The translations under genes and the position numbers were made by a program. From the NCBI GenBank assembly GCA_037576195.1, contig CM075104.1:15268211-15332210 (forward strand): a stretch of DNA of 64,000 bases, in the 5' to 3' direction. How positions within the stretch are numbered: position 1 is the stretch's first letter; each line of letters opens with the position of its first letter. The stretch is from Phytoseiulus persimilis. Its lineage: Eukaryota; Arthropoda; Arachnida; Mesostigmata; Phytoseiidae. Under the pieces are notes generated by a model, which was not told where the DNA came from, did not search any database, and saw only the letters and a list, made by a program, of their open reading frames with translations. Of the stretch, positions 2,064 to 39,500 are shown piece by piece.

Positions 2064-5000
2064 CGAGAGTGTCATGAGCCTGCGAGTCCTTCGTGCGACC
2101 GAAAACTTCGAGCTGACGGCACGCTTGGAGAAATCCGTTCTGTTCTCTGCTGAAGAACTTGAAGTTCGGTCTCGACGTGAAGTATCCGGTCCAATACGCA
2201 TGAGGATTGTCGGCGTACGGGAAAAAGTCTTCTTCGTGGACGCTCCACGTGATGCGTTCGTCATGCAGTGCCTTCGAAATCGATGTTAAGTTTGAATCGT
2301 TCTGAGAACCCACACGAGCTAGCGAGAGCCTCGATGGTCGTTTCCGCGCGAGCGAAAACTTCCATCGGAATCCACGATGTACAAGTCTTGGGGTTCGTGC
2401 TGAGCATCCCGCTTCACCCAAAAAAGCTGTGGGCCGTTCCTAAACGTTCTTGCCGCCGCGTGAATGAGCGATATCATCATAATAACCTTCAGATAGCAGG
2501 TGGGCGTGGAGTAGAACACATTAACGCCAGGAATCTGGTTCATGTAATGAACGAGTTTGTCTAGATTGCGGAACCATTTGTTAGCGTCTTGGTAGTGGAA
2601 GTCTAGACCCATGGTGAACACCGTGTTGTTACTCTTGTAATGCTCAGCCTGCGTCCGGGCGAGCGTCATCAGCTCCTGGGCCCTCCTCCTTCCGTTAAGG
2701 GTCTGGAAGCAAGTTGACCGCCATGAGGAATCTCGTCCGAGCAGAAGGTCGGTTGGAACCCAAGCTCCCACTGGACATGTGATTGAACTCTTTCTCTCTC
2801 TCTCTCCCTCTCAGGGCTACCTGGAGGAGGCCGACGAGAAATGGCGGATATATTTCAGAATCGGCTTGACAGGCTCAACGTGACCAGCCGGGTGAGCGTA
2901 GCTCTATGACTTGACAATATTTCAATGCCGGATTCGGCGAGTGCCTCACCGTGACTTCCTCGTCGTTGCAGTACATGTCGAAGCAGAATCCTTTCGGCGG
3001 CCAGTAGACGTTCGGGAGTACACCAAGGAACAGTTCTCCTTCACGACCTTGCGTGGGATCTGTTTGCCACAACATTTCCATTTCTCGATGCTTCTCGCGC
3101 CATTCTTTTTCTTCGTAGTGGATTCGTCCCAGGAACATTCCGTCGAACCCCATCTGTTGAAAAGTGTCTGTTAGGAATCATTGAATTCCAATGGCGAGTT
3201 TAGACGAGAGATACCAGCCCACTGATCGCAGCCGTTTTGATGGCAGCACCGTAGTCGACAGCTTCCACGTAGCCGAATTTTCTTCCCCGATTCTATCTGA
3301 CAGGAGTACGGAGGACAGCCGCACAATCGCATCACTCGCCTCGAAAAGCAGAAAAAGTTCTTGGAATTCACCGTTGAACTCCGTCAAGGCTCTCCCCTGG
3401 CCGCGCTCCCAAAGAAAAGATTCTCCGTGCTGTCCGACTTGGTTTACGAGAGGCTCAGAAGTATCAGAGCATCGGAATATCAAGCTATTGCGAGCGAGGA
3501 ACTAACTCCGATCCGGACCTGACCCCGAATTCTCTTTTCGAGCTACGCACAGTCATGAGGGAAAACAGCGTTCTCGCACGAGAATGACTTCTTCAGCAAA
3601 AGTCCTCTATCTGGGACGACAACTCCATCAGAAACCCGAGGAATCTCAGGGGTAAGCCGTGGATGGTCACCCGAAATCGTCGGATTGACCCAAGCCCGGA
3701 TCGAGCGACCGTCGCTGTTGCGAGAGCACATGCAGCCGCCTATGTTATACGAAAATTACGGGAGATTCTAACGAAGTTGGTCTTGATCGTGGTGGAGGAT
3801 GTACGATACACGACAGAACATAATACACGAGCAGACCCTTTCCGGCGAAGCAATGTTCGCACCGAAAGAGGATGAACAGGAAATCATGAGAACCTCCAGG
3901 GTGAGAGAATGAATCAAAGAGCGCACGCTGTAGAATATTCATTGTATGATCATTCCTCTCCCGACTCCACGCGGAAGCGAGAGAGTATTCCGGACAAGAC
4001 TGAGCGTATGGAATTCACTCCTGAGCTCACGGGCGATCGGAGCTGAATCGCTGTTCGTGTTCTGCATCAGGATCACCGGTGCAACTGCGCATTGCGCACC
4101 TGGGTGAGCGGAAACGGCAATTCAAACCAACGCGTGAATTATGAGCGAAGAGCAGGAAGGAGAAATGGAGACGTTCGGCGCCGTGAAGTGGACGATACAT
4201 AGCAGACCAGGCCACTCAGGGCGCGAGGACAGGGGAGATGAGGAGCGAGCTTGTGTACTGCCCTCTGGAGATGAATCGATGGTTCTCAAGCGCATCGACC
4301 CAGGCGACCCAGTCAGAGTCTACAGTGGTGATTCTGGTAGGTCAAAGAGTAGTGTTTGATACTTTCCCATGTGTTTGGTCACACTGCCCGATAGTTCCAC
4401 CAGATCAATTTCGATTCTGGTTAATTTCGAAAACTCGCCATCGATGGTGATTGATTGCAATCTGCAGGAATATTAGCATCAAAAAGATCTCAAGGAAGTA
4501 TTAGGTAAGTCAAAAAGTTCGTAGCGTTTTTGATCCGGCATTTTTGAAATTCCCGCGCTCCGCACAAGAGCCGCCTACTACAGTGGTTGTTCGTTTACGT
4601 TCTTAGGCGGGCTCTAGAGTTCCTACCGGTGTATCGTTTCAGACTTTATCGTCGAGTTCGTAAAATCAGGAAGAATTTGCGATGGAGGACCAAAAGCAGC
4701 ATTTTCGACACATAATGTTGTTCTGCTACCGCGAAGGCTTGAATGCAGCGAAGACCACTCGAAGAATATCTGCAGTTTACGGGGAGAATGCTCTTCAAAG
4801 TTCTACGGTTAGAAAGTGGTTTACCCGTTTCAAGGCTGAAAACTTTAATCTTGAAGATGAGCCCAGATCAGGACGACCACAAGTTGTGGAACCCGATGAA
4901 ATCATTAGCCTGGTAACTTCAAACCCCGGCCTGACCATCAAAGAAATTGAAGACTCGACGGGAGTTTCTCATGGAACCGTTTGGAATCGCCTCCATCAAG

Positions 5001-8000: not shown

Positions 8001-11000
8001 GCAACGCTCAGACGGGAAAAATCGGATTTCGAAAGAACGTGAGCGTTTCCAACAAGCCGTGATGTCTCTCTCGCCGCATATAGTTGACCATTCCATGTCC
8101 TCATTTTTCCCCATGTCAGGCCAATCGAGCCTCCCAGTTTCGCTGTGGCTGTTGAATTTTCAGGAGCGTACTCTACGATCACTTCCTGCCCGAAACCAGG
8201 TTCAACGGTTCTCAATCAGGAGAACGGCACACAGAGAGAATCCCAGCGAAAATTGGATCGTTCTACAGAGGTTGGAGAGAGCGAGAATGAATACCAAAAC
8301 TATGCTGGTATAATGCCTCCCATATGCTGAACGCAAGGGGTGAACCATGTTCTCCGTCCTCCATGTTCAAAATCTTCCTCAGCCTGGGGCAACAAAAAGA
8401 ATCACTATACAACCAACCACCAAGCGTCCAAGGGCGGAGTCGCGCAATGAATCATCAAACACTCTCACACACTTATATCTATGCGGGATTCAGATTCCTC
8501 AAACGGCCGCCGCCCTTTCGATGCATCACGATACGTCCGAATCCGATTATAGGGTGTAGCCGACCGACAAATATTTGATCGAAGACATCACCTGAATCCG
8601 TGCCTCGACGGAAAATCCCGGCATTTGTCTCTCTCTCTTGTCGGAAGATTCGCAATCCCCATATTCGCCGTTCAGGATACAATCGTTGCTTTCGACATGA
8701 ACTGCCGATGAGTGCAAGGCGCGTGGCGCGTTCGAGCATCCCCACCGGCGCGCTACACCTAGGTAGCGTTCTGAACAGCTCTTCGCACACGGGATGGAAG
8801 CTTTCCAATTATTTGGTGGACGAAACGAGGCCCGAATCTATTCCGAGAGTTACACATTAATCGCTGGCCCATTCCCTGCTGGGCTGGAGCATGGGCGACG
8901 TCGATGAGTTGTTCCCGCATTGCACGACTTAAGAGGAACCTGCTGGAAGAGAGCAAATAATAGAACGAGCTCGCCTGCCCCGGTATATGAACCAGAGCTC
9001 GCTACCCATAACCAAGTCCTCCGGACGATGCCCGCACAAGGAGACACCTCGAAGTGTTTATCGCTCAAATTCTCCTGGGAAGGTCTGAGTCCAGGGCCAT
9101 GTGTAACCCTAGCAGGGTTGTCACAGGAATGTGACGGTCTCCACCAGAAATGACGCCTGCATTACCAATCTGTGACCTCTTAACGAGTGAGAGGTGATGC
9201 GAGGCGCTGGAAAGGGGGCCGGCCAGCAATCTGAGTCCGATCTGCGGGGCGGGGCTTCCCCACCAGTGGGTTAGCCCCGTAACTCAATTCAGACTACTCC
9301 GTCTGGAGGACCCATTTTATCGTCTACAAAACACTCGCCGCGTCATCATTTTAGACCCCCAAAGGTCAAGCGGCGTCTCAGTCACCCGTTCCAGCTGAGA
9401 GGAGTTTGAGAAGAAAAACGGAATTTTCGTTCCGCCTAGAGGTATGAATTCCTCAATCTGTTGGCCGGCACTGCGAGATCCTGTCCGCGAACTCATCGTT
9501 TTTTTTAGTAGATGTTTGATGTACGCTTTTCAGCCACCAGAGGCACCAGGAAGAACGCATCTTGGCCGCAACGGTCTTCGCAAGGCCCGTTGTCCGATTG
9601 TGAAAATGTTGACATCGCAGTCCTCCGAAGCTGACGAGCCTTCAATCCGATTCAAAAACGCAAGAAGTGCCTCTCAGTCATCAAGTGATTCCTCCATAAC
9701 TTCGGGAAGTCCGCGAGAGCTTTCCAAAGCTCTCGTCCAATATCCCATATTCCGGCGAATCTAATCCAGCAGGATGGCGATATCTCTGTATTTCCTTGCT
9801 GCAATGATAGACCGGTGCATATCTCGATTCCGTTCCGAATTTTGACCGGAGAAACGGCCGGGAGTACCGCTTATGAGTATATCTAGGTGTGGAGTCAGAC
9901 GACATGATTCCTGAAGGCCCGACTGGTCCTACGTTCCGTCAGTTCAGTTTGATGTTTATCGGCGATGCGCTCATGATTTTCCACGAAGCCGAACGGTGAT
10001 CGACTCCTGAGGAGCTAGATCAGAGAAGAAGGAGGCAGAGGGGGCTTGTTCCACGCAGTCAGTTAAAATTGCTTTCGGTTAAGGATTTCGAGTTCGTGCA
10101 GACTGCACGCAGTTCGAATAGCCTGCACGGCAGGTGGCGTGACCGCTGACTATGAGATCGTGCAGCGTGGCGTGCGCCCCTTGCGCACGATGCACCTCCT
10201 CCCTGAAAGGATTACAAAGGCCATACATACACAGGAAAAACTTCCCTTCCATCGAGTCGTTCAGTCAAGCTGGTGTCGGAGAGGAAAAAATCCTGGGTTC
10301 GGCCCATTCCGGTCATGATGCCACAGAGTCTGCAGCACGCACAACACACCGTAAGCTCCAGGTTTTCGAACGACGACGGACGGGACGACGGACGACGGAA
10401 TGTCGAATCCATTCGAGCTTTCATCGCTTTTTAACGATTTGGCATCTCGGGAGCATTTCAGGGCTTGACTCGTTTCATGTTCTAGTTCGAAAGATCGTGA
10501 TCCAATACAGAAAGGACATTCTCGAATCCCAGTGATGTTCCTTCGCATGCTTCTAGTTCCAGGCTTCCGGCCTGAGACAGAGCAAGGTTGGCAACAGATC
10601 ATCAGTGTGAGACCACGGTAGATGTTCCCTCTTTTTTCTCAATCTCATGAGTCTCACTCATCACCTTCCACGCTCTCCGGGAGCATATCGATGAAACTCA
10701 TTCGTTACCGGGGACTTTCCATCGACTAATGTGGGAAATGGTCTGCGTGAATGTCACCCGGCGCTCGGAGGACGCGTTCAGCTGTCCGTGCAACACGCTA
10801 CACACGTCATCGCGCTTCAAACGGTGGAATGGAGAGGCGAGGTGCACTCTTATGGAACAGCCCTGTCTGCACAGCTGTTGTGGAATGAGGTGGCAGTCAC
10901 AAAACTATGAACTGCCCTCGACAGCCACCCCCTGCGAATGAATCATTCGTGAAGATTACCCCAGTCGTCCTCCAGGTGGATCACTCGTTCCCAGATAAGA

Positions 11001-26469: not shown

Positions 26470-27074
26470 ATGGCCTCGGCGGACTTGTGCTGGCAAATCA
26501 TGCGCGTTCAATCGTGCCACATCGTCAAAAAGCCCCAGTGTGCAAAGTGGTTCTCCACGGATCCCCTGAACCCGAAGAACGTTCACGTGAAGAAGTTCTC
26601 AGGGCTCTCGCAGAAGAAGGCTCTCACCGTGGCGGCAAACCCTAAAGGAAAGGGGGTTGTTCTGGTTGCCAAGACCAAGAACTTCAGGTTGAACAGGCCT
26701 GTAAAATCTCTCCAGCAGATCCCTCTGACCAAGCACATGAGGAGGATCAACAAGGCTATCAACGGTGAGGCGCAAACATGAATTACTTGTACTCCCCCAG
26801 GGGAATGAGTGCGAGCTCGGCGGAATTCTGTGATCAGAGCGATCCGCCTTCTGAGTTCTGATCGCGATGTCCGCCGACCCGTTCCAGTAATGGCAGATTA
26901 GTTTCTTCAGCAAATCCGAATCCGCTCAAAGAATGAACCGTGGGTCTCTCGGTTTCAGGAATTTCCAAGGCCTACGGTCGAGCCGATCTGTCTCTGACCC
27001 TCAAGAGACGCGCTACTGCTCTCATCAAAGCTCAGCAAAAGGCCGCCAAGTCTGGCGCTGTCAAGAAGGAGTGA
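26470..27074 (+). CDS. RpL28: 60S ribosomal protein L28 (eL28), two coding exons
   Basis: A structural protein of the large cytosolic ribosomal subunit. Coding exons are 26470-26764 and 26959-27074, joined in phase (AAC G|gtgagg ... ttcag|GA ATT), giving 136 aa, the usual length. It starts MASADLCWQIMRVQSCHI and contains the family hallmarks KWFSTDPLNPKNV, FSGLSQKKALTV and KGVVLVAKTKN. The second exon, GISKAYGRADLSLTLKRRAT, supplies the basic C-terminal helix, followed by ALIKAQQKAAKSGAVKKE. The sequence before the ATG (tttcaactttcag then cagcagtagcag) looks like a splice acceptor, so a non-coding first exon upstream is likely. The C-terminal third is divergent, but the overall fit is good. 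Repeat element X1 begins only about 210 bp after the stop codon. Confidence 0.92.
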
Positions 27075-27079
27075 ATAAA
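27074..27079 (+). terminator. Poly(A) signal of RpL28, overlapping the stop codon
   Basis: AATAAA shares its first base with the TGA stop (27072-27074) in the run gtgaataaac. If it is used, the 3' untranslated region would be only some 15-30 nt. No other AATAAA is evident before the repeat complex. Confidence 0.65.
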
Positions 27080-27286
27080 CTTATCGGCGTTCTGACGATA
27101 TGATTGTCATCCTTCCTGCTCGATGAACTTGAGAGCCTCATCTGAGTGCAGAGCTACGCGAGTTACTCAGCGGGGCTAATATTCGTGGGATTTCTCATCT
27201 CACAGATTGATTGTGCGACGTTGGGGGGTCTTCGCAAGAAGCTCGTAAAGATGACGTGACGAAACACGGGCTGTCCATGTATTTTG

Positions 27287-30200
27287 GACTAGCCGGCCTT
27301 CGGCCGACTACGCTGGCCGACCCGTCCCTTGCTTCGGGAGTCTACTGCTGACAGACACACATTGCTTTAAATGTAGTGTCATGAGACCTTCGAGAGTGGC
27401 CAACGATTCTCGATAGGATTCTGACCTGGAGTCGAGGCACTTTCCTCTCTCTTCACTTGGTCAGCATCATGGTTTCGAGAAGTATGGTCAGATTGGTGTC
27501 GTAATCACCCCTCCAGATTCGGAGAAGCATGGTCAGATTGGTCCCGGAATCACCCCTCCAGGTTTTGAAAAGTATGGTTAGATATGTCTCGAGATCACCC
27601 CTCCAGACTCGGAAAGTGATAGTCAGATTGGTCTCGGAATCACCTCTCCAGACTTGGAAAAGTATGCTCAGATTGGTACCGGAATCTTCCTTCTAGAGTT
27701 GGGAAGTGATGCTCAGATTGGTCTCAGAATCACCCCTCCAGAGTTGGAAAGTAATGACCAAATTGGTCCCAGAATCACCCCTCCAGAGTTGGAAAGTTAA
27801 GGCCAGATTGATCCCGGAATCACCCCTCCAGAGTTGGAAAGTAATGCTCAGATTGGTCTCAGAATCACCCCTCCAGAGTTGGAAAGTAATGGTTGGATTG
27901 GTCCCGAAATCACCCCTCCTGGGTTGGAAATCAATGCTCAGATTGGTCTCGGAATCACCCCTCCAGAGTTGGAAAGTAATGGTCAGATTGGTCCCGAAAT
28001 CACCCCTCCAGAGTTGGAAAGTAATGGTCAGATTTGTCCCGAAATCACCCCTCCAGAGTTGGACAGTAATTCTCAGATTGGTCTCGGAATCACCCCTCCA
28101 GAGTTGGAAAATGATGCTCAGATTGGTCCCGAAATCACCCCTCCCGAGTGAGACAGTAATTCTCAGATTGGTCTCGGAATCACCCCTCCAGAGTTGGAAA
28201 GTAATGGTCAGATTGGTCTCGGAATCACTCCTGCAGAGTTAGAAAATAATGCTCAGATTGGTCTCGGAATCACCCCTCCAGAGTTGGAAAGTAATGGTCA
28301 GATTGGTCCCGAAATCACCCCTCCAGAGTTGGAAAGTAATGGTCAGATTTGTCCCGAAATCACCCCTCCAGAGTTGGACAGTAATTCTCAGATTGGTCTC
28401 GGAATCACCCCTCCAGAGTTGGAAAATGATGCTCAGATTGGTCCCGAAATCACCCCTCCCGAGTGAGACAGTAATTCTCAGATTGGTCTCGGAATCACCC
28501 CTCCAGAGTTGGAAAGTAATGGTCAGATTGGTCTCGGAATCACTCCTGCAGAGTTGGAAAATAATGCTCAGATTGGTCTCGGAATCACCCCTCCAGAGTT
28601 GGGAAGTAATGCTCAGATTGGTCCCGGAATCACCCTTCTAGAGTTGGGAAGTTATGCTCAGATTGGTCTCGGAATCACCCCTCCAGAGTTGGACAGTAAT
28701 TCTCAGATTGGTCTCGGAATCACCCCTCCAGAGTTGGAAAATAATGCCTAGATTGGTTCCGAAATCACCCCTCCAGAGTTAGACAGTAATTCTCAGATTG
28801 GTCTCGGAATCACCCCTCCAGAGTTGGAAAGTAATGGTCAGATTGGTCGCGGAATCACTCCTGCAGAGTTGGAAAATAATGCTCAGATTGGTCCCGAAAT
28901 CACCCCTCCAGAGTTGGACAGTAATTCTCAGATTGGTCTCGGAATCACCCCTCCAGAGTTGGAAAATAATGCTCAGATTGGTCCCGGAATAACCCCTCCA
29001 GAGTTCGAAAGTAATGCTCAGATTGGTCTCGGAATCACCCCTCCTGAGTTGGAAATCAATGCTCAGATTGGTCTCGGAATCACCCCTCCAGAGTTGGAAA
29101 ATAATGCTCAGATTGGTCCCGAAATCACCCCTCCAGAGTTGGACAGTAATTCTCAGATTGGTCTCGGAATCACCCCTCCAGAGTTGGAGAATAATGCTCA
29201 GATTGGTCCCGGATTCACCCCTCCAGAATTGGACAGTAATTCTCAGATTGGTCTCGGAATCACCCCTCCAGAGTTGGAAAGTAATGGTCAGATTGGTCTC
29301 GGAATCACTCCTGCAGAGTTGGAAAGTAATGGCCAGATTGGCACCGGAATCACCCCTCCAGAGTTGGACAGTAATTCTCAGATTGGTCTCGGAATCACCC
29401 CTCCTGAGTTGGAAATCAATGCTCAGATTGGTCTCGGAATCACCCCTCCAGAGTTGGAAAATAATGCTCAGATTGGTCCCGAAATCACCCCTCCAGAGTT
29501 GGACAGTAATTCTCAGATTGGTCTCGGAATCACCCCTCCAGAGTTGGAGAATAATGCTCAGATTGGTCCCGGATTCACCCCTCCAGAATTGGACAGTAAT
29601 TCTCAGATTGGTCTCGGAATCACCCCTCCAGAGTTGGAAAGTAATGGTCAGATTGGTCTCGGAATCACTCCTGCAGAGTTGGAAAGTAATGGTCAGATTG
29701 ATCCCAGAATCACCCCTCCAGAGTTGGGAAGTAAGGCTCAGATTGATCCCGGAATCACCCTTCTAGAGTTGGGAAGTAATGCTCAGATTGGTCTCGGAAT
29801 CACCCCTCCAGAGTTGGGAAGTAATGGCCAGATTGGTCTCGGAATCACTCCTCCAGAGTTGGAAAGTAATGCTCAGATTGCTCCCGGAATCACCCCTCCA
29901 GGCTTGGGAAGTAATGCTCAGATTGCTCCCGGAATCATCCCTCCAGAGTTGGAAAGTAATGGCCAGATTGGTCTCGGAATCACCCCTCCAGAGTTGAGAA
30001 GTAATGGCCAGATTGGTCTCGGAATCACCCCTCCAGAGTTGGAAAGTAATGGCCAGATTGGTCTCGGAATCACCCCTCCAGAGTTCGAAAGTATTGGCCA
30101 GATTGGTCTCGGAATCACTCCTCCAGAGTTGGAAAGTAATGCTCAGATTGCTCCCGGAATCACCCCTCCAGGCTTGGGAAGTAATGCTCAGATTGCTCCC

Positions 30201-30558
30201 GGAATCACCCCTCCAGAGTTGGAAACTAATGGTCAAATTGGCACCGGAATCACCCCTCCAGAGTTGGAAACTTATGGTCGGATTGGTCTCGGAATCACCC
30301 CTCCAAAGTTGGAAAGTAATGTCCAGATTGGTCTCGCAATCAGCCCTCCAGAGTTAGAAACTAAAGGCCAGATTGGTCTCGTAATCACCCCTCCAGAGTT
30401 GGAAACTAATGGCCAGATTGGTCTCGGAATCACCCCTCCAGAGTTGGAAAGTAATGGCCAGATTGGTCTCGGAATCACCCCTCCAGAGTTGGGAAGTAAT
30501 GGCCTTATTGGTCTCGAAATCACCCCTCCAGGAGTTTTTATGATAGATTTTTATGATA
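27287..30558 (+). repeat. Composite repeat element X, copy 1
   Basis: A ~200-bp head (27287-27488) starts gactagccggccttcggcc and ends gtcagcatcatggtttcgag. It is followed by a 45-bp minisatellite array (27489-30531) and a tail with two successive copies of ttttatgataga. The head and terminal units match copies X2 and X3 closely, which defines X as one repeating entity rather than three unrelated arrays. No protein-coding module is present. It may be a non-autonomous mobile element or a segmental tandem duplication. The strand given is that of the A/T-rich tail. Confidence 0.8.
27489..30531 (+). repeat. 45-bp minisatellite, array 1 (about 68 units)
   Basis: Tandem 45-bp units starting cagattggtctcggaatcac and containing ccctccagagttggaaag. 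Read in one frame a unit gives GITPPELESNGQIGL. The first few units are the most divergent and the interior is more uniform, with higher-order blocks of 7 units (315 bp; for example 28031 and 28346) and 8 units (360 bp; for example 29041 and 29401). Two units carry an in-frame TGA (near 28148 and 28463), so this is not one continuous reading frame. The last unit contains the variant ccttattggtctcgaaatc, which also ends array 2 and, nearly unchanged, array 3. Confidence 0.95.
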
Positions 30559-33500
30559 GACTAGCCGGCCTTCGGCCGACTACGCTGGCCGACCCGTCCC
30601 TTGCTTCGGGAGTCTACTGCTGACAGACACACATCGCCTTAAATGTAGTGTCATGAGACCTTCGGGAGTGGCCACCGATTCTCGAAAGGGTTCTGACCTG
30701 GAATCGAGGCACTTTCCCCTCTCTTCACTTGGTCAGCATCATGGTCTCGAGAAGTATGGTCAGATTGGTGTCGTAATCACCCCTCCAGATTCGGAGAAGC
30801 ATGGTCAGATTGGTCCCGGAATCACCCCTCCAGGTTTTGAAAAGTATGCTTAGATTTGTCTCGGAATCACCCCTCCAGAGCTGGAAACTAATGGCCAGAT
30901 TGGTCTCGGAATCACCCCTCCAGAGTTGGAAACTAATGGCCAGATTGGCACCGGAATCACCCCTCCAGAGTTGAAAACTAATGGCCAGATTGGTATTGGA
31001 ATCACCCCTCCAGAGTTGGAAAGTAATGGCCAGATTGGTCTCAGAATCCCCCCTCCAGAGTTGGAAAGTAATGGCCAGATTGGTACCGGAATCACCCCTC
31101 CAGAGTTGAAAACTAATGGCAAGATTGGTCTCGGAATCACCCCTCCAGAGTTGGAAAGTAATGGCCAGATTGGTCTCAGAATCCCCCCTCCAGAGTTGGA
31201 AAGTAATGGCCAGATTGGTACCGGAATCACCCCTCCAGAGTTGGAAACTAATGGCCAGATTGGCACCGGAATCACCCCTCCAGAGTTGGAAACTAATGGC
31301 CAGATTGGTCTCGGAATCACCCCTCCAGAGTTGGAAAGTGATGGCCAGATTGGTCTCAGAATCACCCCTCCAGAGTTGGAAAGTAATGGCCAGATTGGTC
31401 CCGGAATCACCCCTCCAGAGTTGGAAAGTAATAGCCGGATTGGTCTCGGAATCACCCCTCCAGAGTTGGAAAGTAATGGCCGGATTGGTCTCGGAATCAC
31501 CCCTCCAGAGTTGGGAAGTGATGGTCAGATCGGTCCCGGAATCACCCCTCCAGAGTTGGAATGTTATGGCCAGATTGGTCCCGGAATCACCCCTCTAGAG
31601 TTGGAAAGTAATAGCCGGATTGGTCTCGGAATCACCCCTCCAGAGTTGGAAAGTAATGGCCGGATTGGTCTTGGAATCACCCCTCCAGAGTTGGGAAGTG
31701 ATGGCCAGATTGGTCTCGGAATCACCCCTCCAGAGTTGGAAAGTAATGGCCAGATTGATACCGGAATCACCCCTCCAGAGTTGGAAAGTAATTGCCAGAT
31801 AGGTTCCGGAATCACCCCTCCAGAGTTGGAAAGTAATGGCCAGATTGGTCTCGGAATCACCCCTCCAGAGTTGAAAACTAATGGCCAGATTGGTCTCGGA
31901 ATCACCCCTCCAGAGTTGGAAAGTAATGGCCAGATTGGTCTCGGAATCACCCCTCCAGAGTTGGAAAGTAATGGCCAGATTGGTCTCGGAATCACCCCTC
32001 CAAAGTTGGAAAGTAATGGCCGAATTGGTCTCAGAATCACCCCTCCACAGTTGGAAAGTAATGGCCAGATTGGTCTCAGAATCACCCCTCCAGAGTTGGA
32101 AAGTAATGGCCAGATTGGTCTCGCGATCCCCCCCCCCCAGAGTTGGAAAGTAATGCTCAGATTGCTCCCGGAATCACCCCTCCAGAGTTGGAAAGTAATG
32201 GCCAGATTGATACCGGAATCACCCCTCCAGAGTTGGAAACTAATGGCCAGATTGGTCTCGGAATCACCCCTCCAGAGTTGGAAAGTAATGGCCAGATTGG
32301 TCTCGGAATAACCCCTCCAGAGTTCGAAAGTAATGGCCAGATTGGTCTCAGAATCCCCCCTCCAGAGTTGGAAAGTAATGGCCAGATTGGTCTCAGAATC
32401 CCCCCTCCAGAGTTGGAAAGTAATGGCCAGATAGGTACCGGAATCACCCCTCCAGAGTTGGAAACTAATGGCCAGATTGGCACCGGAATCACCCCTCCAG
32501 AGTTGGAAACTAATGGCCAGATTGGTCTCGGAATCACCCCTCCAGAGTTGGAAAGTGATGGCCAGATTGGTCTCAGAATCACCCCTCCAGAGTTGGAAAG
32601 TAATGGCCAGATTGGTCTCGGAATCACCCCTCCAGAGTTGGAAAGTAATGGCCAGATTGGTCTCGGAATCACCCCTCCAGAGTTGGAAAGTAATGGCCAA
32701 ATTGGTCTCGGAATCACCCCTCCAGACTTGGAAAGTGATAGTCAGATTGGTCTCGGAATCAACCCTCCAGAGTTGGAAAGTAATGGCCAGATTGGTACCG
32801 GAATCACCCCTCCAGAGTTGGAAATTAATGGCGAGATTGATACCGGAATCACCCTTCCAGAGTTGGAAACTAATGGCCAGATTGGCACCGGAATCACCCC
32901 TCCAGAGTTGAAAACTAATGGCAAGATTGGTCTCGGAATCACCCCTCCAGAGTTGGAAAGTAATGGCCAGATTGGTCTCGGAATCACCCCTCCAGAGTTG
33001 GAAAGTAATGGCCAGATTGGTCTCGGAATCACCCCTCTAGAGTTGGGAAGTAATGGCCAAATTGGTCTCGGAATCACCCCTCCAGACTTGGAAAGTGATA
33101 GTCAGATTGGTCTCGGAATCAACCCTCCAGAGTTGGAAAGTAATGGCCAGATTGGTACCGGAATCACCCCTCCAGAGTTGGAAACTAATGGCGAGATTGA
33201 TACCGGAATCACCCTTCCAGAGTTGGAAACTAATGGCCAGATTGGCACCGGAATCACCCCTCCAGAGTTGAAAACTAATGGCAAGATTGGTCTCGGAATC
33301 ACCCCTCCAGAATTGGAAAGTAATGGCCAGATTGGTCTCGGAATCACCCCTCCAGAGTTGGAAAGTAATGGCCAGATTGGTCTCGGAATCACCCCTCCAG
33401 ACTTGGAAAGTGATAGTCAGATTGGTCTCGGAATCAACCCTCCAGAGTTGGAAAGTAATGGCCAGATTGGTCTCGGAATCACCCCTCAAGAGTTGGGAAG

Positions 33501-33564
33501 TAATGGCCTTATTGGTCTCGAAATCACCCCTCCAGGAATTTTTATGATAGATTTTCATGATAGA
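30559..33564 (+). repeat. Composite repeat element X, copy 2
   Basis: The head (30559-30760) is nearly identical to that of X1, including gactagccggccttcggcc, cttgcttcgggagtctactg and the first diverged units. The array is 30761-33536. The tail is ggaatttttatgatagat followed by tttcatgatagat, and it runs directly into repeat Y1. It abuts the tail of X1 with no unique DNA between. Confidence 0.8.
30761..33536 (+). repeat. 45-bp minisatellite, array 2 (about 62 units)
   Basis: The same 45-bp unit as array 1, but dominated by the aatggccag variant and with many ggcaccgg and ggtaccgg units. Higher-order blocks are visible at 3 units (135 bp, near 31041 and 31176) and at 8 and 7 units (the aaccctcc variant near 32761, 33121 and 33436). 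A homopolymer run of cytosines around 32128-32140 changes the register of the array by a length that is not a multiple of 3. Confidence 0.95.
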
Positions 33565-33879
33565 TGTACAGGAGAGGAGGCGGGGAAGGATATCCGATGA
33601 CGATGGGATGAGTCTGGCTGGCGTCATAACGGGGCGGTGCACCTTATCGTCAGAATTTGGATGCGGATGACAGTATGGAGGGGGTCAAAGTTGGGGTAAA
33701 TCGCGAGGGGGGAGGAGGGGAGGAGGAGGGGGGGAGGGGTGGGTGGCCTATGTCCGTCCCGGAGAGCCGCCCTACATTATGCAGTTTGTTCCAAGTCGAT
33801 CCGATCAATACCAGAGGAGCCTATTGAGGACATACAAACAAACAAACAAACAAACAGACCCTGGATTTTTATATATATA
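33565..33879 (+). repeat. Repeat element Y, copy 1
   Basis: About 315 bp. It starts gtacaggagaggaggcgggg, then has cgtcataacggggcggtgca, a purine-only tract (33705-33739), a conserved block gccgccctacattatgcag, a (CAAA)n run (33834-33855) and the tail cctggatttttatatatata. Four copies occur in this region. The microsatellite followed by a TATATATAGAT-like end is typical of 3' ends of RTE-type LINEs and SINEs that use them. That assignment is an inference; no reverse transcriptase is present. Confidence 0.8.
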
Positions 33880-35524
33880 GACTAGCCGGCCTTCGGCCGA
33901 CTACGCTGGCTGGCCCGTCCCTTGCTTTGGGAGTCTACTGCTGACAGACACACCTTGCCTAACATGCGGTGTCATCGGGACACCTTCGGGGGTGGCCACC
34001 GATTCTCGATAGGATTCTGACCTGGGATCGAGGCACTTTTCCTTCTCTTCACTGGGTCAGCATTAAGGTTTCGAGAAGTAATGCTCAGATCGGTCCCGGA
34101 ATCACCCCTCCAGAGTTGGGAAGTAATGCTCAGATTGGTCTCGGAATCACCCCTCCAGAGTTGGGAAGTAATGCTCAGATTGGCCCCGGAATCACCCCTC
34201 CAGAGTTGAAAAGTAATGCTCAGATCGGTCTCGGAATCACCCCTCCAGAGTTGGGGAGTAATGCTCAGATTGGTCTCGGAATCACCCCTCCAGAGTTGAA
34301 AAGTAATGCTCAGATCGGTCTCGGAATCACTCCTCCAGAGTTGGGAAGTAATGCTCAGATTGGCCCCGGAATCACCCCTCCAGAGTTGAAAAGTAATGCT
34401 CAGATCGGTCTCGGAATCACCCCTCCAGAGTTGGGGAGTAATGCTCAGATTGGTCTCGGAATCACCCCTCCAGAGTTGAAAAGTAATGCTCAGATCGGTC
34501 TCGGAATCACCCCTCCAGAGTTGGGAAGTGATGCTCAGATCGGTCTCGGAATCACTCCTCCAGAGTTGGGAAGTAATGCTCAGATTGGTCTCGGAATCAC
34601 CCCTCCAGAGTTGGGAAGTAATGCTCAGATCGGTCTCGGAATCACTCCTCCAGAGTTGGGAAGTAATGCTCAGATTGGCCCCGGAATCACCCCTCTAGAG
34701 TTGGGAAGTAATGCTCAGATTAGTCTCGGAATCACCCCTCCAGATTTGGGAAGTAATGCTCAGATTGGTCTCGGAATCACCCCTCCAGAGTTGGGAAGTA
34801 ATGTCAGATTGGTCTCGGAATCACCCCTCCAGAGTTGAAAACTAATGGTCAAATTGGCACCGGAATCACCCCTCCAGAGTTGGAAAGTAATGGCCAGATT
34901 GGTCTCGGAATCACCCCTCCAGAAATGGGAAGTAATGCTCAGATTGGCCCCGGAATCACCCCTCCAGAGTTGGAAAGTAATGGCCAGATTGGTCTCGGAA
35001 TCACCCCTCCAGAGTTGAAAACTAATGGTCAAATTGGCACCGGAATCACCCCTCCAGAGTTGGAAAGTAATGGCCAGATTGATACCGGAATCACCCCTCC
35101 AGAGTTGAGAACTAATGGTCAAATTGGCACCGGAATCACCCCTCCAGAGTTGGAAAGTAATGGCCAGATTGATACCGGAATCACCCCTCCAGAGTTGAAA
35201 ACTAATGGTCGAATTGGCACCGGAATCATCCCTCCAGAGTTGGAAAGTAATGGCCAGATTGGTCCCGGAATCACCCCTCCAGAGTTGGAAAGTAATGGCC
35301 AGATTGGTCTCGGAATCACCCCTCCAAAGTTGGAAAGTAATGTCCAGATTGGTCTCGCAATCAGCCCTCCAGAGTTAGAAACTAAAGGCCAGATTGGTCT
35401 CGTAATCACCCCTCCAGAGTTGGAAACTAATGGCCAGATTGGTCTCGGAATCACCCCTCCAGAGTTGGGAAGTAATGGCCTTATTGGTCTCTAAATCACC
35501 CCTCCAGGAATTTTTATGATAGAT
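33880..35524 (+). repeat. Composite repeat element X, copy 3
   Basis: The head (33880-34085) begins gactagccggccttcggcc immediately after the tatatatag tail of Y1. The array is 34086-35508. The tail ggaatttttatgatagat joins Y2. The head is slightly more diverged from X1 and X2 (for example aacatgcggtgtcatcggga in place of the aaatgtagtgtcatgagacc form), so X3 is probably the oldest or an independent copy. Confidence 0.8.
34086..35508 (+). repeat. 45-bp minisatellite, array 3 (about 32 units)
   Basis: The same unit family. The first two thirds are dominated by the gggaagtaatgctcagat variant arranged in 4-unit higher-order blocks (180 bp, for example 34201 and 34381); the last third resembles arrays 1 and 2. 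A one-base loss near 34802 shifts the register. It ends with the conserved ccttattggtct terminal unit. Confidence 0.95.
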
Positions 35525-35889
35525 GTATAGGAGAGGAGGTGGGGAAGGATATCCGATGACGATGGGATGAATCTGGCTGGCGTCATAACGGGGCGGTGCA
35601 CCTTATCGTCAGAATTTGGATGCGGGTGACAGTATGGAGGGGGTCAAAGTTGGGGTAAATCGCGAGGGGGGAAGGAGGGGAGGGGGGGAGGGGTGGGTGG
35701 CCTATGTCCTTCCCGGTGAGTCGCCCTACATTATGCAGTTTGTTCCAAGTAGATCCGATCAATACCGGAGGAGCCTATTGAGGACAAACAAACAAACAGA
35801 CAAACAAACAAACAAACAAACAAACAAACAAACAAACAAACAAACAAACAGACCCTGGATTTTTATATATATAGATTTTCATGATAGAT
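35525..35889 (+). repeat. Repeat element Y, copy 2
   Basis: About 365 bp, starting gtataggagaggaggtgggg. It is longer than the other copies because its (CAAA)n run (35785-35850) is expanded to about 66 bp. The purine tract is at 35664-35693. The tail tttttatatatatagat is followed by a short tttcatgatagat as in X2. Confidence 0.8.
35785..35850 (+). repeat. (CAAA)n microsatellite
   Basis: About 16 units of caaa with one caga interruption, inside repeat Y2. The equivalent runs in Y1, Y3 and Y4 are 20-31 bp. Confidence 0.9.
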
Positions 35890-36207
35890 GTACAGGAGAG
35901 GAGGTGGGGAAGGATATCCGATGACGATGGGATGAGTCTGGCTGGCGTCATAACGGGGCGGTGCACCTTATCGTCAGAATTTGGATGCGGATGACAGTAT
36001 GGAGGGGGTCAAAGTTGGGGTAAATCGCGAGGGGGGGAGGAGGGGAGGAGGAGGGGGGGAGGGGTGGGTGGCCTATGTCCGTCCCGGAGAGCCGCCCTAC
36101 ATTATGCAGTTTGTTCCAAGTCGATCCGATCAATACCAGAGGAGCCTATTGAGGACATACAAACAAACAAACAAACAAACAGACCCTGGATTTTTATATA
36201 TATAGAT
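35890..36207 (+). repeat. Repeat element Y, copy 3
   Basis: About 318 bp, nearly identical to Y1 along its whole length, with a purine tract at 36029-36064, a (CAAA)n run at about 36160-36180 and the tail tttttatatatatagat. Directly abuts Y2 and Y4. Confidence 0.8.
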
Positions 36208-36533
36208 GTATAGGAGAGGAGGCGGGGAAGGATATCCGATGACGATGGGGTGAGTCTGGCTGGCGTCATAACGGGGCGGTGCACCTTATCGTCAGAATTT
36301 GGATGCGGATGACAGTATGGAGGGGGTCAAAGTTGGGGTAAATCACGAGGGGGGGAGGAGGGAAGGAGGAGGGGAGGAGGGGTGGGTGGCCTATGTCCTT
36401 CCCGGAGAGCCGCCCTACATTATGCAGTTTGTTCCAAGTCGATCCGATCAATACCAGAGGAGCCTATTGAGGACATACAAACAAACAAACAAACAAACAA
36501 ACAAACAGACCCTGGATTTTTATATATATGGAT
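36208..36533 (+). repeat. Repeat element Y, copy 4
   Basis: About 326 bp, starting gtataggagaggaggcgggg, with a purine tract at 36347-36382, a (CAAA)n run at 36477-36507 and the tail tttttatatatatggat. It forms the right-hand edge of the repeat complex; unique DNA follows. Confidence 0.8.
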
Positions 36534-39500
36534 GGGGCTCTGGCACGGACTGGTGACTGAAGCGGTGCTGAGATCAAGAAGCATTCCTTCCAGATGAGTC
36601 CCTAGCACATGAGCTTGAATTGAAAACGCGGAGGATAAGGAGCTAAATTAGATGCTTGTTTATTATGTATTTTTTCATCGGGTAATTTTCGGATGATCAA
36701 ACTGCACTCGCAGCTCTCCTCAGTTATCTCTAAGGAATCTTTAAACGATCAATCGATGCCTACGGTATCTTAACGATCCTTGGCGACGTCGTTCCACCAA
36801 CGCCGGAGTGTGATGTTCAGTCCTGTTCACCGACCTTTCAGTGGCAGCCCTTCGTCGAACCTCTCTCTTTGGAATAATCATGACACGAAATGGGTGATGG
36901 TAGCGTTCGATGGTGTTCTGTTCTTCGTGTCAATGATCAGAATAACTCTTGGGTTCTTCATGCTGATGTTGTTCGAAGGTTTTGGTGGTAGCGGTTTGGG
37001 AGAGAAAGAGGACGACGGAATATACGGCGGGAATCCATGTCGTCCATAAGCGTCCTAGCTACTGCTCCGCCCGATCCGAGGGGTGCGTTTACGGTCGCCA
37101 TTGGGATAGACAAAACGATGGTATGAAGTCTGGATAATGGAGAGGGTTGTCGGGATGACCGAAATGCGCCCGTGTGGATTGGGCGCGAGCGCTGGACTAG
37201 CTAAGCCACCGACTGTGAGTAGCGGTAGGCTACGAGAGACTATAAACTAATGTTCAGCTTCAGTTCTGGTCGATGGTATCCACCGTTTGTGTTTGATGTT
37301 AGATTTCTCGAAGTAAAGTGTCCCTTTGGCAAGACCACTGCGGGTTGGCGCCGGGGGTCGGACGTCTCCAATTCTTCCACTCGTTCTTCACTGTTCGTTC
37401 GGCGTAACTGCTGACTTGAGGCTAGTGAAACTACGAATGCCGATCTCATGCTCCACGTCCAAATTTTCAACTGTGAGTTTGGACAGCGCTTTCCTGCTCG
37501 ACTCTTCTATTCGGCTATTTTCCGATAAGTCTGACTGCTCCAACTCGTGCATCGTTCTCACTGTTTGCATCTAACGCCTCAACTTCCAGAGGTCGTGTAC
37601 GCACGCTTCTGTGTGATGAAGGTGCGCATATAATGTGTTCGGCATTCTGCGAAACCGCATCCTTGCATGGTGATAATGTATCGATAAAGATCATGGTATT
37701 AGGTTCTGACGAGACACGAACCGCATCGCCCGCGTGCAGTCAATATGTTCTATCAAAAGGCAGTGATCTTCCACGTTAACCCTTCACACGGTTCACTTCT
37801 TCAGCTCCCAGCGATTCTCCCGATTTGCTCTCCTACTCTCCCCTTCCCGGTTGCGGAACCAAGCGTCGACAACCCTGATGAAATCAATAATCATGAAGTG
37901 GGGCGAACAGGATGGCTGACACGTGGGACAATGGGGCTCGTTGGTAAAATCACTTGTCAAGAATGAAGCTTTGCCTGCGCTCACTCATAAATAAACAGCA
38001 GACTCGCGCCGAAACAACGCCGACTCCATGTCTGTCGGCAAGGACCTTGATGCGTTTTGTTTCAGTGGAAAATTTAATCGATTCCTCTCTGATCATATCT
38101 CCGTAGTCCTCGCCGACGTCGATGAGATCGACCGACAACAAGAACTCATCAATAGAATCGAACAACTACCAAACGACAACCAACGAACACAGCGACGATC
38201 AGTCAATCTGCGAAGCCAACACAGGATATGGACGAGCCTCTGGATACCTGACTGCGGTTACAGACAGGTCGGCTCGGCACTCTGTCAAGCCAGTTACCGA
38301 CTTTGAAAGAAGTGTCGCGCGAAATCAATAAATATGAATCTCCGTGCAGTCATCAAGCCGAGCCTAATACATCTAGTTCCCGTCGAAACTGCGGTCGAAG
38401 CTCTCGCATCAATCGTTGCAGCAGTTTCAGTCGTGATTGCTCTCGTTCGACGCACTAGTAGTCAGTAGTTTCTCATGTGATACTCATGATGCGGAATGAA
38501 TGTACAAGAAAGGGTGTGGGATGGAGTGTTCAAGAGAAACAGTCCTTGAAAAAATCTCTCCACACTTTCAGGACACCTTTCTACTAAGGAACGATAGTCG
38601 ATCATGCTCTACCTGCCTGAGCTATCATTTCGGCAAGAGAACATCAGCAGCTTGTAGCGGAAGCATCGTGTAGAATTGAATCCACAAGAGTATCGTTCCG
38701 CTTGTGTGAAACTCTTCGTTTGCACTCGATAGGGAACCAGGGAATTTCCTGCATTGATTGGGGAGCGGCCAGCAAAGCTGTCAATCGATCCATTGGGCGA
38801 ACGGCGGAGCGGCCTACCCATGCGCGAGCGACCACTCGATCAATGAACAAAACCATTTCAGCGTACCAGACGCAAAAATATTCTCCTTTCCTTCTTCCAA
38901 GCAAAATAAGAGAGACATTCCAATGGATCTTGGAGAGCGCATGGAATGAAGTACAGCATCGGAACACCTTACGGAGCCCATCCGAAGCGAGACTCGAGAG
39001 TGATTCCCTTGATGCGACTGAGACCCCAGGAATTTCTGCTTGCGATTTGGCATCGTGTGACGTTGTTTCCTCGGCGTGTCGTTTGAATACATCTGGCAAG
39101 CTGGCGCGATCTGACTTTGGAGAGAATATGGAGTTCTCGAGCACTAAGCTTTCGGCAGAACGTCTGGATTAATCGAAACAGGCCGTCCTGGTTCAAGCCG
39201 TTAGCTGGCGAGACGAAGAGAACAAAACGCTGGCGCTCCAATAGCCGTTCACATCCGAATAGTTTTCTCGTCGAACTCTTATAGGTTGATAGGAGAAATC
39301 GCTCGAGCGGAGGCTTGACTTCGACGCGATCAGTGCAATAGCTCCGTCGCGACCGAGCTCCGCATGTTGCCTTCAAGTGCTCACTAAATCCTCTAATCGT
39401 TGAGAGACCGTTGGTGCACGGTCTCTCCCGTCAGCGGAATGCACGGATCTTCGAGTGGTTCATCGTTACTGTCATGACGCCTGCGCGACTCGACCACGAA

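Follow-up and report, generated by a model that had tools for sequence, protein, structure and literature searches.

The 64,000-nucleotide window analysed here (Phytoseiulus persimilis, assembly GCA_037576195.1, contig CM075104.1; C4:15268211-15332210) was found to contain a composite insertion built from copies of a repeated element, hereafter X, which carries a 45-bp minisatellite. Positions 27289-36532 were read as four tails together with three heads, each of which has its own 45-bp array. On the minus strand, the order of X is 5'-TCTATATATA, a tail of ~320 bp, the 45-bp array, the head, a terminal hairpin and CTAG-3'. A full copy contains TC, an AT-rich start, the tail with a TTTG microsatellite, the inner TCTATCATAAAAAT motif, the array, a head of ~190 bp, the hairpin and CTAG, in this order. 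The parts of the insertion are as follows.

27289..36532, minus strand: whole composite insertion (putative Helitron), flanked by a host A at 27288 and a host T at 36533
27289..27480, minus strand: X1 head, the 3'-terminal region with hairpin and CTAG-3'
27481..30536, minus strand: X1 45-bp array, ~68 units
30537..30560, minus strand: X1 inner 5'-end motif, TCTATCATAAAAA twice; its A/T site (here and below, the slash marks the point of insertion) is filled by the nested insertions
30561..33881, minus strand: X2, complete nested copy with head, ~62-unit array and tail
33552..33881, minus strand: X2 tail, including a second inner motif; ends in 5'-TCTATATATATAAAAATCC on the minus strand
33882..35875, minus strand: X3, copy of a divergent subfamily, with head (~87%), ~32-unit array and tail
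35876..36206, minus strand: extra tail T2', 99.4% identity to the X2 tail
36207..36532, minus strand: displaced X1 tail, parted from the X1 array by X2 and X3

A preliminary description of this stretch had placed the block at 27287-35524 and read it as three consecutive, equivalent copies of an element that it did not recognise. The three heads, each followed by a 45-bp array (~68, ~62 and ~32 units), were recovered as described, with head starts (the C of CTAG) at 27289, 30561 and 33882, and the special last unit ccttattggtct was found in all three copies. The equivalence of the copies held only in part: the X3 head is divergent, with 86.5-87.0% identity to the X1 and X2 heads, and X3 is devoid of the diverged first units (labelled X1 and X2 in that description). 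The same AT-rich tail was ascribed to all three copies; copy 1 has no long tail beside its array, its tail being displaced to 36207-36532. The limits were also revised, since the true first base is 27289 (27288 being a host A) and the true end is 36532; on the minus strand, the 3' end CTAG lies at 27289 and the 5' end TCCATATATATAAAAATCC at 36532.

When the opposite strand is read, X falls into a known class. We consider it highly probable (about 95%) from the sequence that X is a minus-strand non-autonomous Helitron, often inserted into its own kind, and that self-insertion, either nested or in tandem, produced the copies, which are then not consecutive equivalents. The window contains one such nest, in which two insertions interrupt X1, namely X2 and an X3 accompanied by an additional tail; this tail, at 35876..36206, would have come along with X3 as a further 5' terminus. 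The assignment is supported by the fixed TC and CTAG ends, insertion at A/T without duplication, the hairpin, the dispersal over four large contigs, the intact copying of the array between some loci and the presence in the same genome of a RepHel element with the same 18-nt 3' end.

Dispersal, termini and target site

The genome searched comprised 181 Mb with ~51% GC. Loci of 10 kb were picked from the best head matches, a set biased to young copies and clusters; sites shared by the overlapping loci L018, L020 and L022 were merged by their coordinates, and host sites whose flanks are identical (L031) were treated as a single site. Matches to the X head of 97-100% were found on contigs C1-C4 (40 scored of 718 candidates), and 56 matches to the tail were found on the same contigs (40 scored of 529 candidates). 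The combination of head, array and tail, always in the same order, was present in 18 of the 20 10-kb loci, as well as in the window. The exceptions were L019, where the array runs past the end of the fetched stretch, and L036, where the head and ~11 units are followed by a different end. The terminal 18 nt of the 3' end of X had 299 exact copies in the genome, whereas the reversed control pattern had 0 matches.

A local segmental duplication confined to the window locus was the condition under which the preliminary description would have been wrong. Some clusters are indeed locally duplicated (L031; C3:22.59 Mb), but the scored head matches on four contigs, the 299 exact 3' ends and the flanks, which differ from the first base outside the ends, refute this explanation and leave it practically no probability. 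The genome-wide matches to head, tail and 3' ends support the idea that X is a distinct non-autonomous element, dispersed in the genome, in which a minisatellite is a constant internal part and varies in length.

The next base after the 18-nt 3' end was T in 298 of the 299 exact copies. Among 39 distinct 3' ends in 23 sequences, 12 adjoined the inner 5' motif of X and 8 the outer 5' end; T came next in 18 of the other 19. The A before the 5' end was present at the fixed offset of the script in 14 of 20 rows. The six remaining rows comprised L027, L032 and the window, where A/TC lies two bases earlier and the second terminal base is changed, two self-junctions in L025, and the exception L017; by eye, A was present at 16 of 17 host sites, three L025 self-junctions being excluded. 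In window orientation, host sequence starts at A/CTAG and GA/T. X thus inserts between a host A and T. Target-site duplications, which had been anticipated, are absent, as is expected for a Helitron, and the ends (TCTATATATA and CTAG) fit the Helitron criterion of 5'-TC and CTRR-3'.

The host sequence beyond the 3' end was rich in A+T. In 15 independent host 3' flanks, the A+T content was 82% at +5 to +14 against 47-52% farther out (0 of 10,000 resamplings as high), and ATAA or TAAA was found at +4 to +16 in 11 of the 15 flanks against a background of 7%. On the 5' side, A+T enrichment was looked for at -5 to -14 and none was found (51%). The 5' ends of X itself match this host target of A/T followed by AT-rich sequence.

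The RepHel partner and the 45-bp array

A PF14214 profile search (E up to 0.001) gave 101 Helitron-Rep matches genome-wide, a count that includes matches below the family cut-off and pieces of single genes. Similar Rep loci formed one group (L037, L039, L040, L042, L044 and L048). L040 contained an open frame of 1,183 residues (PF14214, 7.2e-61), the protein of which matched Helraiser (7lcc) at 3.8e-179 over Helraiser residues 13-1071; the start of a PIF1 domain was also matched, below the cut-off. In L050, 1,125 nt downstream of L040, a helicase C-terminus was followed by a stop codon, ~240 nt and a 3' end, which shares the last 18 nt of X exactly and directly adjoins an X 5' end. The helicase C-terminus gave a weak match to Helraiser 1442-1466. 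Its 44 residues matched Pif1 helicases and Helraiser weakly (E 0.009-0.018), and a search of Pfam and NCBIfam gave no match. This gap from L040 to L050, which lies outside the sequence read, fits the 1,113 nt that Helraiser would predict. A Helraiser-like RepHel element of the P. persimilis genome, as predicted from these loci, ends in the same 18 nt as X.

The 3' end of X was found to fold into a hairpin with a 9-bp stem and a 3-nt loop, and a 9-bp stem was also present in the RepHel partner (z score -3.35; 1 of 200 shuffles as good). Non-autonomous Helentrons of the HINE/DINE type belong to an endonuclease-bearing group, and this type is known with central repeats in Metaseiulus. HINEs may contain central tandem repeats, have a 3' palindrome and are known from a predatory mite (PMC4067079), so that X could be thought to be one of them. 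However, the target of X is A/T and not the TT (T-rich) site of Helentrons and HINEs, and subterminal inverted repeats of 11-15 bp are absent from X, the longest exact inverted match being 4 nt when the first 60 nt of X2 are compared with its last 120 nt. In addition, the helicase frame of L050 stops ~240 nt before the 3' end, which leaves no room for an endonuclease domain. We therefore regard such an origin as very improbable and retain X as a canonical Helitron (Helitron1).

Several features of the RepHel loci were observed besides. The proteins of L037, L039, L040, L042, L044 and L048 start with a coding minisatellite of 69-bp units (23-residue repeats), with a QQRA spacing mostly of 23 or its multiples; L040 also gave a sub-threshold match to the STPR repeats of Pfam, and the repeat number may differ between copies, the fetched loci cutting the array. 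C3:235556-257032 contains two Rep-bearing copies (L040 and L048; 99.8%) interleaved with X joins, probably nested and duplicated. L045 contains the last 89 nt of X at 95.5% (3406-3494), followed by divergence; downstream of this sequence is a different RepHel gene, towards which it runs on as CTAG/TCTTCTCTATTATATAAATG.

The minisatellite of X was very regular in the window. Steps of exactly 45 bp were found in 67 of 67, 60 of 61 and 30 of 31 cases in the three arrays, respectively (157 of 159 in total), and randomly paired units within an array diverged by ~11-14%. The array length ranged from 7.7 to 94.6 units among 31 complete copies, one of which (L022) has an interruption; the array of L019 has at least 173 units. 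Four dispersed copies shared a common head-plus-array segment of 2,449 bp with 99.2-100% identity, and because of this match transposition can copy the array intact. Over longer time, the array length presumably changes through slippage or unequal exchange.

The array might instead code for 15-residue repeats, X then being a gene or a captured gene. The unit of 45 is divisible by 3, its steps are nearly all exact and open frames in the region reach 599 codons. We examined the variability of positions on both strands and found no coding signature in the arrays. The mean variability by unit phase was 0.112, 0.083 and 0.055; with phases assigned by hand, the third codon position had 0.083 in the open plus frame, where the second had 0.112, and 0.055, the lowest value, in the open minus frame. 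Stops, at least 5, were present in every frame of the three arrays, and a coding array is considered extremely improbable.

A ribozyme or structured RNA was sought in X with Rfam (E up to 10) over 26900-38500; two weak matches were obtained, both outside 27289-36532. Elsewhere in the window, a nuclear RNase P RNA gene, the mark of a eukaryote, was found at 9020-9307 on the plus strand (144.1 bits). An exact match to SL1 was sought and not found, and a nematode host was rejected. Short stretches of the 45-bp array ending in sequence like ACTAAGCCGATTATAT were observed in L017 (1037-1100), L023 (1060-1132), L028 (2085-2250) and L036 (7328-7808). L036 has the X head, and the other three look like remnants; these ends suggest a related, perhaps older, family.

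Probable self-insertion and nesting

In our study, 61 of the 299 3' ends were found to join X 5' sites exactly, 27 at the outer 5' end and 34 at the inner motif. The internal site CCTATACA/TCTATCATAAAA was found unfilled 151 times by exact genome matches, whereas filled forms were found 36 times on the 5' side and 34 times on the 3' side, with no base gained or lost. At exact matches the two forms differ only by the insert, and the internal site serves as a built-in unfilled control. An inner insertion is expected to leave a second scar, in which the tail is joined to a new 5' end. For 20 of the 34 filled 3' sides, a filled 5' side with the proper position and strand was present at a distance of no more than 12 kb. 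Random placement gave a mean of 0.08, a rough contrast in that it ignores clustering.

These joins can be ordered into a route. The RepHel protein would nick X at its 5' TC, one strand would be peeled off through tail, array and head until the hairpin and CTAG bring a halt, and the freed strand would be joined to an A/T target, the array length being altered later by slippage or unequal exchange. Where a copy is already present, insertion at the A/TC of its 5' end would give tandem CTAG/TC joins, and insertion at A/TCTATCATAAAA, between its tail and array, would nest the new copy and displace the tail of the older one. A nest that re-transposes from its outer 5' end would halt at the first 3' end and yield single copies with at least two tails. 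The same course, in which a nest moves again as far as its first 3' end, has been proposed for FoHeli (PMC5148889). Scars that lack an inner join fit it, as in L023, which contains one head and two tails.

The tandem copies could alternatively be rolling-circle concatemers, made when the 3' stop is bypassed, rather than repeated self-insertions. CTAG/TC joins are the expected product of bypass, and tandem arrays formed in this way have been reported in Helitrons of plants (Xiong et al., cited after PMC12628747). The two tandem head-plus-array segments of 2,151 bp in L031 (579-4880) are 99.8% identical, and 8 of the 27 head pairs no more than 7 kb apart have 99.5-100% identity. However, the other 19 pairs have only 86.5-97.0%, which does not exceed the similarity among all heads (median 97.0%). 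Simple concatemers therefore do not explain most clusters, although they may explain a few. Concatemers also do not predict displaced tails, yet 20 of the 34 inner joins have them. As a general explanation of the tandem copies, bypass is unlikely; concatemer formation may account for some outer joins and for L031, the segments of which could be due to either unequal exchange or a rolling-circle concatemer.

Similarity of the motif alone was considered as the cause of self-insertion and rejected, for it predicts ~0.1% of insertions in X against 20% observed, on the basis of ~216,000 comparable target sites, a number extrapolated from the part of the window not occupied by X (54.4 kb). The resulting ~200-fold excess is an upper estimate, the 61 ends including local repeats and outer joins that are possibly concatemers. 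Since similarity gives ~0.1% and not 20%, a further attraction, local hopping or concatemers at the outer joins are needed. We tentatively propose, at slightly less than even odds, that X is self-targeting in the sense that the transposase or the 5' end draws insertions up to ~200 times the motif expectation, which would build nests, displace tails and create composites that bear several stacked 5' ends and move as units.

The following points weigh against the reading of X as a self-inserting Helitron. Its mobility is deduced from sequence, and the extra tail at 35876-36206 requires an additional step. L017 has no A before its 5' TC, and two L025 joins contain an extra TC. The 20 scar pairs use 17 distinct partners, five of them sharing two partners in locally repeated runs; 14 of the 34 filled 3' sides have no exact 5'-side partner and are unexplained, and changed bases or deletions may account for these inner joins. 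Among the filled 5' sides, 19 of 36 are in none of the 20 pairs, which fits what re-transposed nests would leave. The hairpin of X is modestly above chance (z score -1.66; 9 of 200 shuffles equally good), and its centroid structure retains 5 of the 9 pairs. Its stem lies 1 nt from the 3' terminus in both X and the partner and takes in most of CTAG, whereas the Helitron hairpin is usually described 10-12 nt from the 3' end (PMC5148889), and that of Helraiser 11 nt from it (PMC4778049); we treat this spacing as descriptive and not as defining. X and the RepHel element share only the terminal 18 nt exactly, identity falling to 23 of 30 when 30 terminal nt are compared and to 36 of 60 when 60 are compared. 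The 5' end of the partner, TCATAAAAATACAGC in L049, is a predicted one.

In L018, a segment of 1.3 kb (~8001-9345) was observed between two X copies. It opens with TCCTTTGATATT directly after the CTAG of X, and at its other end a small hairpin and CTTAA adjoin the TC of X; it is possibly another Helitron family.

Comparison with known Helitrons

X shares 5'-TC, CTAG-3', insertion at A/T, the absence of a duplication and a 3' hairpin with Helitron1 and with Helraiser/Helibat of bats, and its Helraiser-like RepHel partner is in line with canonical Helitrons. It differs from them in the hairpin, which is flush (1 nt) with the 3' end in X and 11 nt upstream in Helraiser, and in having no RepHel gene, the element being mostly 45-bp array. 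HINE/DINE-1, DINE-TR1 and other Helitron/Helentron elements with central tandem repeats are likewise non-autonomous, their ends being conserved on either side of the repeats (PMC12628747, PMC4067079, PMC6947457); HINE and DINE-1 differ from X in their TT or T-rich target and subterminal inverted repeats (PMC4067079). In the composite FoHeli Helitrons of Fusarium, self-insertion has been proposed to give several 5' ends and one 3' end, as in X (PMC5148889). Their terminal type is different, and for X a single genome displays both the unfilled site and its filled halves. According to a review, Helitrons commonly contain internal tandem arrays (PMC12628747), and the HINEs of a predatory mite have central repeats (PMC4067079). 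X is thus a new family of a known kind, both internal arrays and self-insertion having been described for Helitrons before. No description of the X family was found among the titles and abstract openings listed, in a collection that lacks most subscription papers and by searches made without its sequence.

The most interesting feature of X is its frequent self-insertion. Without the present reading, repeat annotation would show an unexplained 45-bp satellite. Near-identical or fully identical dispersed copies with a minisatellite of 2.2 kb separate the spreading of the array by transposition from its later change of length. The X family shows nesting unusually clearly, and with filled sites, unfilled sites and displaced remnants in one genome, the proposed route to composite Helitrons is traceable event by event.

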